Below, piece by piece: positions 40,579 through 47,478 of a stretch of 64,000 bases of DNA (position 1 is the stretch's first letter; every line of letters begins with the position of its first letter). Source of the DNA: Crocinitomicaceae bacterium (GTDB lineage: Bacteria > Bacteroidota > Bacteroidia > Flavobacteriales_D > Crocinitomicaceae); the NCBI GenBank assembly GCA_024643725.1, contig JAHEMJ010000014.1:186001-250000 (forward strand), read 5' to 3'. The notes under the pieces were generated by a model. That model was not told the DNA's origin, searched no databases, and was given only the letters and a program-made list of their open reading frames with translations. Both the position numbers and the translations under genes were made by a program.

Positions 40579-40592
40579 AGCGTATTTTCAAT

Positions 40593-41100
40593 TTATTCAC
40601 AAAGGTAATCACTATTCACAAATAGGGAGAGTTATTCACTTTGATGATTTTGTTAAAGAGCTAAACCCTTTGTTTTATTGAAAATGTTTTGGTTAGTTGT
40701 CCACCGATTTTCCTCTTGAATTGTTAATACCTGTGTATAAGCTATCATAACTTTTACTTGCATAAGTCATTCGAAATTCGAATTGCACATTTATTTAATA
40801 TAAGCACGATAAGTTTCGTGTTGTTATATATAGATATCCATGTGGTTATACACTTTTTCTTCTTGTCTTTCTTCGTTTAATTTTCAACAAGTCTCCTTTT
40901 TTGTGGATTGTTTATAAGGTTATATTCATCTTATATTCAATAAGTTAAATAATTATTACTTGTTCATTAACTTGGAGTTTTTGTTTATATCGTCTTCTGC
41001 AAATTTTAACGGATAACTTTTACACAAATGAACAGTCTTAATAAGAGTAATAAAGATTTTAAATAATTTAAAAAAAGAAATATATTATATTAAATAAGGA
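40593..41100. other. Putative chromosomal replication origin (oriC)
   Basis: The only long gap in the window, lying between divergent rpiB and the DUF4175-like gene. Perfect TTWTNCACA DnaA-box matches are at 40593-40601 (TTATTCACA), 40732-40740 (minus, TTATACACA) and 41018-41026 (TTTTACACA). One-mismatch copies are at 40612-40620, 40632-40640 and 40846-40854; two-mismatch copies at 40697-40705 and 40902-40910 (minus). Two stretches are extremely AT-rich: 40911-40975 and 41040-41097, the latter a candidate unwinding element. A TTCGAA-A-TTCGAA pair lies near 40771-40783. Two parS sites lie 4.3-4.8 kb away. No coding sequence or RNA is visible in the gap. Origin function is inference; a multi-site regulatory region is the alternative. 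Confidence 0.6.
40600..40607 (-). promoter_or_regulatory. -7 promoter element TACCTTTG before rpiB
   Basis: Perfect TAnnTTTG match on the minus strand, 21 bases before the rpiB ATG. It overlaps the end of the DnaA-box match at 40593-40601. Confidence 0.55.
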
Positions 41101-41109
41101 GATCCAGAT

Positions 41110-41117
41110 TAAATTTG
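41110..41117 (+). promoter_or_regulatory. -7 promoter element TAAATTTG
   Basis: Perfect TAnnTTTG match 32 bases before the ATG at 41150; it supports that start over the in-frame TTG at 41120. Confidence 0.55.
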
Positions 41118-41149
41118 CCTTGTATCAAAATCTTGAATACTTTTATCTC

Positions 41150-44563: not shown

Positions 44564-44977
44564 ATGAAAGAAGGATTTAATATTATAGAGAAAACAACGT
44601 TACCATCTGATTATCAATCTCTTGTGGATGTTGAGAATCTGGTTGAGCGCGTTTGCCAAACGTTGCATATCCAGGAGGATGCATTCGGAAATATTCTCAT
44701 TTCGGTCACAGAGGCTGTGAATAATGCCATTTGCCACGGTAACGGAAATGATCAATCATTGTACATCGAGGTGGCAGTGGCAGAGAACTCTGAGTCTTTT
44801 TGTTTTCATGTGAAGGATGATGGAAATGGATTTGATTACAATAATCTTCCGGATCCAACAGCTCCCGAAAATATCCTAAAAGAAAATGGAAGAGGAATCT
44901 TTTTAATGAAGAGTTTGGCTGATGAAGTTGAATTCAATGAAAAAGGGAATGAAGTGACGATTTATTTTAGTAAATGA
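44564..44977 (+). CDS. Serine-kinase/anti-sigma-like ATP-binding protein (RsbW type)
   Basis: A 137-residue single GHKL ATPase domain. The N-box is SVTEAVNNAICHGNG (about residue 45) and the G1/G2 boxes are DDGNGFD and ENGRGIFLMKSLADEV. There is no sensor or phospho-acceptor domain, as in SpoIIAB/RsbW. These proteins bind a sigma factor or phosphorylate an STAS-domain partner; neither partner is encoded nearby. The order RsbW-like, ybeY, mnmG is, to my knowledge, common in Bacteroidota. The stop overlaps the ybeY start by four bases (ATGA). Confidence 0.87.
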   Translation: MKEGFNIIEKTTLPSDYQSLVDVENLVERVCQTLHIQEDAFGNILISVTEAVNNAICHGNGNDQSLYIEVAVAENSESFCFHVKDDGNGFDYNNLPDPTAPENILKENGRGIFLMKSLADEVEFNEKGNEVTIYFSK

Positions 44978-45411
44978 TTTCTTTCCAATTTATCGATTTA
45001 AAAAAACCTCGTTTTTTAAGAATGAATCAACTCAAGTCCTTTTTAAAGGTTCTTGTGAGGGATGAGGGTAAACATCTTGGTGATTTGTCTGTTGTTATTT
45101 GTACGGATGAGTATTTGCTAAAGGTGAATCAAGATTTTTTACAGCACGATTACTACACGGATATCATTACGTTTGATTATTGTGATGACGATGTTGTTTC
45201 TGGGGATTTGTTAATCTCATATGAACGGGTTTTAGAAAATAGCATACTGGAGAATACAGGTGAAGAAAATGAGTTTTATCGCGTTGTTTTCCATGGACTT
45301 TTACATTTGTGTGGATATAAGGATAAATCTGAAAAGGATATATTGTTAATGCGCTCAAAGGAAAATGAATATTTAACCAAGTTTGTTTCACGTGAAACAA
45401 ATAAAGATTAA
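44974..45411 (+). CDS. ybeY: Endoribonuclease YbeY (16S rRNA maturation)
   Basis: A 145-residue single-strand endoribonuclease acting in 16S 3'-end maturation and ribosome quality control. The metal motif is [11 protein letters not shown]: His107 and His111 are present, but the third position, His in E. coli, is Asp117. Bacteroidota homologues seem to share this change. The [11 protein letters not shown] block near residue 58 is family-typical. The last codons run through the first parS site, which spells FVSRETNK in this frame. mnmG follows 28 bases after the stop. Confidence 0.93.
45382..45401. other. parS site 1 (ParB-binding centromere-like palindrome)
   Basis: The 16-bp core TGTTTCACGTGAAACA at 45384-45399 is identical to the perfect bacterial parS consensus, and the palindrome extends to 20 bp here. 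It lies within the last codons of ybeY. ParB spreading from parS near the origin drives chromosome segregation and SMC loading in many bacteria. Confidence 0.9.
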
Positions 45412-45416
45412 AAAAG

Positions 45417-45432
45417 TGTTTCACGTGAAACA
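45417..45432. other. parS site 2
   Basis: A second perfect TGTTTCACGTGAAACA, in the ybeY-mnmG gap and ending seven bases before the mnmG ATG. Its centre is 33 bp (about three helical turns) from that of site 1, so ParB dimers would sit on the same DNA face. Confidence 0.9.
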
Positions 45433-45439
45433 AATCCCT

Positions 45440-47311
45440 ATGTTAGAAAATTACGATGTTATTGTTGTGGGTGCGGGTCACGCTGGTTGTGAGGCCGCGA
45501 ATGCCGCTGCTAAAATGGGTAGTAAAGTGTTATTGGTCACAATGAACATGAATACGATTGCACAAATGAGTTGTAATCCAGCAATGGGAGGGGTGGCGAA
45601 AGGACAAATCGTAAGAGAAATTGACGCTTTAGGTGGTGGATCTGGAATTGTAAGTGATAAAAGCGCGATTCAGTTTCGTATGCTAAATATGTCAAAAGGA
45701 CCTGCAATGTGGTCTCCTAGGACACAGAATGACCGTATGATGTTTTCATGGGAATGGCGTATGTTGTTAGAGCGAAATCCAAATGTGGATTTTTGGCAGG
45801 ACATGTGTACTGGAATTCTTGTGGAAGAAAACAAGGTTGTTGGCATCCAAACATCCATGGATTTGGATATATGCGGTAAGGCGGTTGTTTTAACGAATGG
45901 TACTTTTTTGAACGGATTAATTCATTTGGGTGAAAAGCAATTTGGCGGAGGAAGAGCGGCAGAAAAAGCGGCGACAGGAATTACAGAGAATTTAATATCT
46001 CTTGGATTTGAAGCGGGAAGAATGAAAACAGGAACACCTCCACGTGTCGATGGACGCTCTTTGGATTATTCAAAAATGGAAATCCAACCAGGAGATGAGA
46101 ACCCATCTAAATTTAGTTATGCCGACACAACAGCATTAAGCAAACAAATACCTTGTTACATTACGTATACAAATGAGCGCACGCATGAATTATTGAGAAC
46201 TGGATTCGATCGTTCACCAATGTTTAATGGAGCAATTAAAAGTACAGGGCCAAGGTATTGTCCAAGCATTGAAGATAAAATAAATCGATTTGCTGATCGG
46301 GATAGACACCAAATTTTCGTGGAGCCTGAAGGGTGGGAAACGGTTGAGATTTATGTGAATGGATTTAGTACTTCGCTTCCGGAGGATGTTCAATTAGCTG
46401 CATTGAAAACAATACCAGGATTTGAAAACGTGAAAATGTTTAGACCAGGTTATGCGATTGAATACGATTATTTCCCCCCTACTCAATTAAAACACACCCT
46501 GGAAACAAAGCTGGTGGAAGGCCTTTATTTCGCTGGACAAATAAATGGAACAACGGGATATGAAGAAGCGGCTTGCCAGGGATTAATGGCGGGTATCAAC
46601 GCACACTTGAAAATTCAAGAAAAAGACCCGTTCATTTTGTCACGCAGTGATGCGTATATTGGTGTATTAATCGACGATTTAATAACAAAGGGTACTAATG
46701 AACCATATCGCATGTTTACCAGTCGAGCGGAATTCAGAATACTGTTGCGACAAGACAATGCAGATGAACGCTTAACTCCACTCGGATTTGAGATAGGGTT
46801 AGCCGAACAAGAACGATTCGAGAAAGTGCAGCATAAAATACAACAAACAAATTGGCTGAAAAAAGAACTTCGAACAATAGGGATTACTCCTGATCAAGCA
46901 AACCCTTTATTAGCAGAAAAGGAATCAACACCAATCAACCAACAAGTAAAAATAACCAGCTTGTTAACTCGTCCACATATCAATTTAACGGATTTGTTGA
47001 TGGTTTCAAGCGAGGCAAAAATGGCAGCAGAAAAGGCCGCGGAGTTTGATACGGATGTGCTTATTCAAACAGAGGTTCAATTAAAGTATGAAGGGTACAT
47101 TGATCGTGAACAAGAACAAGCTCAAAAATTGGCGCGATTGGAAGATTTAATCATTCCGGAACACATCGATTATTCCTTGATAAAAAGTATTTCACTAGAA
47201 GCGAAGGAAAAACTCCGTAAAATAAAACCGCGTACCATTGGACAAGCTTCTAGGGTTTCTGGTGTCTCTCCGAGCGATGTTTCTGTCCTTTTGATCCATT
47301 TAGGGCGTTAA
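45440..47311 (+). CDS. mnmG: tRNA uridine-5-carboxymethylaminomethyl modification enzyme
   Basis: A 623-residue FAD enzyme (GidA) that with MnmE installs the cmnm5 group on wobble U34 of several tRNAs. The FAD motif [12 protein letters not shown] starts at about residue 9. [21 protein letters not shown] near residue 47 and [10 protein letters not shown] near residue 194 are the two family signatures. The frame is open upstream to 45383, but that extension (containing FHVKQ twice) is just parS sequence read in frame; the ATG at 45440 gives normal length and a standard N-terminus. mnmG is origin-proximal in many bacteria. Confidence 0.96.
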
Positions 47312-47315
47312 AAAT

Positions 47316-47343
47316 GCATTTTAAGCGCTTTTAATGCGTTTTT
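47316..47343 (+). terminator. Possible imperfect terminator of mnmG
   Basis: Inverted repeat GCATT ... AATGC around an AAGCGCTT centre, with mismatches, followed by GTTTTT. It starts five bases after the mnmG stop. Confidence 0.4.
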
Positions 47344-47478
47344 AACCCTGCAAATAAGCGAACACCAACATGTGTGAGCGTTTGTTTCTTAAACCCCCAT
47401 TTCTGAGAGCCGTTTTTTGTCCGTTTTTCGATTTTCGATCAGTTTTTCGCTTGCGATTACATGATGGTGATATTTCGT

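Follow-up and report, generated by a model that had tools for sequence, protein, structure and literature searches.

Two palindromes at the junction of ybeY and mnmG

The stretch of Crocinitomicaceae DNA analyzed here (64,000 nucleotides, referred to as the window) carries on its forward strand ybeY (positions 44974 to 45411), encoding an rRNA maturation RNase, and mnmG, also known as gidA (45440 to 47311). Both score over the cutoffs of their families (TIGR00043, E value of 5.4e-24, and TIGR00136, E value of 3.2e-257, respectively). The 16-bp palindrome TGTTTCACGTGAAACA is found twice at their junction with 0 mismatches, each copy listed without a strand. Site 1 (45384 to 45399) lies within the final codons of ybeY, overlapping the 3' end of the gene, and contributes VSRET to the C-terminal tail of YbeY (...FVSRETNKD). 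Site 2 (45417 to 45432) occupies the interval between the ybeY stop codon and the mnmG start and ends 7 bp ahead of the ATG at 45440. The centers of the two sites are 33 bp apart. The tag by which most bacteria pull their copied chromosomes apart is the DNA site parS, and the first-pass annotation of the window had described two perfect parS palindromes here, with the same placement relative to the two genes and the same spacing; of its coordinates (45382 to 45432), only the start was off, by two bases, the true position being 45384. The 16-mer is a published parS consensus (PMC10197239).

Within the window, the next-best match to the 16-mer (22 to 37) has 3 mismatches and is the only other one at up to 3, in agreement with the earlier remark that no further copy was seen. 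The genome-wide search for the 16-mer and its variants that had been proposed at the same time returns these two copies only, at up to 2 mismatches, from the whole assembly (2,712,947 bases in 17 contigs). Base composition predicts about 0.001 perfect copies, and the reversed pattern, used as a control at up to 2 mismatches, matches the assembly in one place.

The spacing had also been taken to put both sites on the same helical face, which is not supported: with 10.5 bp per turn, 33 bp makes 3.14 turns and leaves the sites about 51 degrees out of register. Nor do relatives favor such an arrangement, as neighboring upstream sites (up to 1 mismatch, less than 200 bp apart; n = 35) are separated by 24 to 195 bp, and their mean phase is 134 degrees, not 0 (Rayleigh P = 0.004 for a 10.5-bp period, on related sequences).

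An open reading frame for an RsbW-like anti-sigma ATPase (44564 to 44977; below the family cutoffs) precedes ybeY and has a relative in 25 of the 29 other loci from the order, those with ybeY upstream of mnmG. On the other side, an AT-rich hairpin (47307 to 47346; -14.1 kcal/mol, z score of -4.4) comes right after the mnmG stop codon and is perhaps a terminator. By eye, similar-looking sequence follows mnmG in the close relatives L034, L038, and L042.

Partition proteins encoded elsewhere in the genome

The parS reading had been made to depend on a parB gene in the genome, and a single ParB scores over the family cutoff (G000:C10:283936-284469; TIGR00180, E value of 2.6e-55). It is directly preceded by a ParA-like open reading frame (L003:513-1406), whose family matches reach E values down to 2.9e-30, all under the curated cutoffs. 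A check for these genes close to the site had been proposed; they lie on another contig than the window, and dnaA is found on a third one, apart from both the parS and the parAB contigs.

Among solved structures, this ParB matches Spo0J with the lowest E value (6sdk, 3.2e-51). The combination of R173 and G201 is characteristic of parS-type proteins and that of Q173 and R201 of Noc-type proteins (PMC7383237). In an alignment to Spo0J and Noc chains, the ParB has R and G at these positions, where the Noc chains show Q and R. It matches the NCBIfam Noc model (E value of 2.8e-69) better than parB_part, but the score of 233 bits is below that model's cutoff of 315. The cognate Noc, with Q and R, that a Noc-binding site (NBS) would require was not found; the only ParB/Noc-family protein found in this genome has R and G.

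No Smc over the cutoff was found in the 95%-complete assembly (the 3 matches to SMC_prok_B are all below it), and there is no SMC_ScpA match for ScpA either. Because neither protein reaches its cutoff here, the two sites probably serve partition rather than the loading of Smc-ScpAB.

The separation of parAB, dnaA, and parS recurs in the phylum, where the three are scattered in the genomes examined. G109, a relative with a single contig of 4.551 Mb that is treated here as a circle, has parB about 2.13 Mb from parS (at 1.922 Mb) and dnaA about 1.88 Mb from parS (at 2.465 Mb). Ten genomes have parS and parB together on a contig that makes up the whole genome or almost all of it (G109, G156, G199, G204, G242, G253, G317, G357, G416, and G428); in these, the distance between the two, computed by hand for assumed circles, is 16.5 to 46.7% of the contig span, with 50% as the maximum; the set leaves out G285, G300, and G316, which have 20 to 30 contigs each. 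In G109 and G357, parB is almost opposite parS, 46 to 47% of the chromosome length away.

Position relative to the predicted origin

A 541-bp spacer of 26% GC (40579 to 41119, no strand) between rpiB, whose product scores over the curated cutoff, and an open reading frame of 1139 amino acids is a likely oriC. It contains 7 DnaA boxes at up to 1 mismatch, 2 of them exact, counted against TTATNCACA, which we take to be the DnaA-box consensus. Shuffled versions of the spacer hold 1.04 boxes on average and 6 at most, and 0 of 1000 shuffles reach 7. This cluster lies 4.3 to 4.8 kb from parS, the distance given in the first-pass annotation. Cumulative GC skew over the whole contig (544,591 bases) has a broad minimum at 27 to 42 kb of the window, with its lowest point at about 31 kb, some 14 kb from the parS pair, and climbs steeply past 42 kb. 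The skew changes from -0.012 left of the spacer to +0.036 right of it (10-kb bins, Mann-Whitney P = 6e-6). The box cluster and the nearby skew change are consistent with an origin-proximal centromere as first proposed, the origin being itself a prediction.

In G109, skew turns in the region around the start of the record (40 sampled stretches of 20 kb). When scanned contiguously from 4.26 Mb through the end of the record and on to 0.12 Mb, local skew has its lowest point at about 4.55 Mb and a secondary dip at 4.34 to 4.35 Mb, where parS sits (4.347 Mb), about 0.2 Mb from that local low.

In aggregate DnaA-box profiles, built from near-full-length loci only, 34 Crocinitomicaceae-like loci show a weak peak (1.65 per 500 bp) about 5 kb ahead of mnmG, and 24 other loci show one of up to 4.42 per 500 bp at 4 to 5 kb past the start of the gene. 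Dense clusters are found in L087, L089, L094, L098, L104, L106, L108, and L112 (Algoriphagus, Roseivirga, Fulvivirga, and Belliella), with 9 to 13 boxes in 600-bp windows that begin 4.25 to 4.55 kb past the start of mnmG; the cluster described here is on the other side of the gene. Across these loci, the likely origin thus appears to stay near mnmG while switching sides.

A constant position beside mnmG

Surveys that counted perfect copies only found parS in 46 of 150 genomes of the order and none in the other 104; in the genus of the window, two such copies are present in 7 of 15 genomes, one in 3, and none in 5. Leaving aside the genome of the window, all 45 genomes of the order that have a perfect copy carry one or more no farther than 0.9 kb from mnmG (29 of 29 judged from fetched loci and 16 of 16 from the position of mnmG). 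In a sample of the phylum (296 genomes, at least 90% complete), perfect copies, again the only ones counted, are present in 164 genomes and absent from 132; the reversed control pattern is found in 1 of the 296. In 28 of 28 further phylum loci, mnmG is within 0.8 kb of parS; these loci are the first listed, a non-random set with 17 from the class of the window and 11 from one other family. Several listed phylum genomes have two copies about 1.9 kb apart, a distance that matches the span of mnmG, as though one copy stood at either end of the gene (one side was fetched).

Among 80 named mnmG loci, a site with no more than 1 mismatch adjoins mnmG in 58 and is lacking there in 22. At this threshold, the 25.7 kb of mnmG flank, whose bounds were chosen after an earlier site scan of the same loci, holds 103 sites versus 4 in the remaining 1.27 Mb. 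No site at up to 2 mismatches is found anywhere in the locus in 11 of the 80, some of which are short; 7 of these 11 are Saprospiraceae-titled records. Many loci carry a single copy or copies on both sides of mnmG. As the relatives carry parS at the same gene, the pair is best seen as an ordinary centromere with an unusually constant address.

In L046, L054, L064, L070, L075, and L080, an additional parS-like site begins within the mnmG stop codon, to which its first two bases belong, and 11 of the 19 downstream sites (up to 2 mismatches) in the 80 named loci are at this offset. In L273 (G045:C5:74926-76793), the mnmG match comes in two overlapping pieces, with TAG and TGA reported, either a frameshift or an assembly error.

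Overlap with ybeY and with promoter-like sequence

Where parS reaches into ybeY, the same DNA is read in different phases. A site with up to 2 mismatches starts within the YbeY frame in 48 of 102 distinct YbeY-like tails, which were found by a short motif, so that a few may not be YbeY. In 35 of the 48, the peptide is V(S/P)RET-like, in 8 it is FHVK-like, and in 5 the palindrome contains the stop codon and the tail ends in GFT or SFT. Because the peptide varies across three phases while the DNA is constant, selection in this overlap is, judging from the sequences, on the DNA and not on the peptide.

Ahead of mnmG, the sites of relatives often adjoin a promoter-like element. The motif TANNTT directly precedes parS at 33 of 108 mnmG-proximal sites, compared with 0 to 4 at ten shifted registers, 4 of 55 distal upstream sites, and 0 of 30 downstream sites; at the distal sites, the count rose to 8 in one of the shifted registers. 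In 32 of the 33, TANNTT and the TG of parS together make TAnnTTTG, the exception being L259, where the site begins with AG. The 33 cases are related: 13 come from sampled genomes (10 from the family of the window and 3 from one other) and 20 from named loci. Leader sites of this kind, just upstream of mnmG, are seen in L008, L037, L046, L052, L066, L070, L075, and others; site 2 of the window itself has no TANNTT before it. In Flavobacterium psychrophilum, TAnnTTTG is the -7 box of sigma-A promoters, at positions -12 to -5 (PMC9723704). If that position applies, mnmG transcription would start at base 7 of parS wherever the box is fused to it.

Alternative explanations

This geometry is an argument for the view that the palindromes are chiefly an operator, through which ParB or another regulator would control mnmG transcription from its leader, with partition a secondary or shared role. 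Besides the TANNTT excess and the projected start at base 7, this view can draw on the 41 upstream sites of the 80 named loci (up to 1 mismatch) whose first base is at -22 to -25 relative to the start of mnmG, and on Pseudomonas aeruginosa, where ParB can repress genes adjoining parS (PMC7022226). However, many sites are inside ybeY or downstream of mnmG, site 2 lacks the motif, the TANNTT cases come from related genomes, and one shifted register at distal sites reached 8 of 55; in Bacillus subtilis, moreover, genes adjoining parS are unchanged on loss of Spo0J (PMC7022226). A primarily regulatory role is unlikely.

The pair could also act as RNA, its tandem palindromes forming a long hairpin in the ybeY-mnmG transcript that would tune mnmG translation. 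A 63-nt transcript does fold at -24.6 kcal/mol with a z score of -8.25, but this fold is automatic, since the copies of any duplicated palindrome will base-pair; the many loci with a single copy or with copies flanking mnmG, and the variable distances between neighboring upstream sites, make this role very improbable. Still harder to credit is that the palindromes are DnaA boxes or a part of oriC instead of parS. The authors of Ori-Finder took the same palindrome, located in the predicted oriC region next to gidA in Bradyrhizobiaceae, members of another phylum, for two DnaA boxes (PMC2275245). Here, though, DnaA-box-like 9-mers cluster separately from the palindromes, the genome encodes a ParB with parS-type residues, and the 16-mer matches a published parS consensus.

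A probable chromosomal centromere and its possible link to mnmG expression

The two palindromes are very probably the chromosomal parS centromere of this member of the Flavobacteriales (Bacteroidota), with ParB as the predicted ligand. This reading is supported by the two sites and their uniqueness in the assembly, the parS-type residues of a single chromosomal ParB with a ParA-like open reading frame adjacent to its gene, the DnaA boxes and skew change that put the sites near a predicted origin, and the conservation beside mnmG; the first-pass identification of the 16-mer as a ParB-binding site is thus supported. By analogy with established ParABS biology, ParB, encoded elsewhere together with the ParA-like ATPase, would load on each 16-mer as a CTP-dependent clamp and slide into the neighboring DNA, after which nucleoid-bound ParA-ATP would draw the newly copied origin regions apart.

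The locus resembles the parS sites of B. subtilis Spo0J and Caulobacter ParB in its 16-bp consensus, its location near the likely origin, and the presence of one chromosomal-type ParB with parS-type residues. It differs from them in that parAB is not beside the site, there are only two sites, 33 bp apart, and no Smc or ScpA is over the cutoff. A study of 12 mouse gut bacteria predicted parS in Bacteroidetes as well, namely in Bacteroides caecimuris and Muribaculum intestinale (PMC10197239). There, too, parS clusters mark the origin, dnaA is an unreliable origin marker, and no known condensin was found in the two Bacteroidetes; that study differs in using a 2-mismatch search, and its searchable text has 0 matches to “gidA.” The type of centromere is thus already known, and the parts worth following are the constancy of the mnmG address and the promoter overlap. 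Neither a link between mnmG and parS nor a promoter overlap in Bacteroidota is stated among the literature matches listed, which mostly leave subscription journals uncovered and do not establish priority.

A further proposal, tentative and rather doubtful, joins these two parts: the Bacteroidota centromere would be fixed to mnmG, not to parAB or dnaA, and in part of the family of the window the leader parS would supply the last two bases of the mnmG -7 box, coupling ParB occupancy to mnmG expression. This would place the partition complex right where transcription of a tRNA modification gene begins, and either mnmG would be repressed while ParB is bound or transcription would clear the clamps. 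From sequence considerations, then, the overlap might reflect regulation of mnmG by ParB.

The parS pair represents a minimal origin-proximal centromere identified in a little-studied part of its phylum. For draft genomes of Bacteroidota, it suggests a practical rule, that parS and the origin region be sought beside mnmG and not beside dnaA or parAB. Because parS in relatives overlaps a promoter-like box ahead of mnmG, a role of ParB in local regulation can be tested directly.
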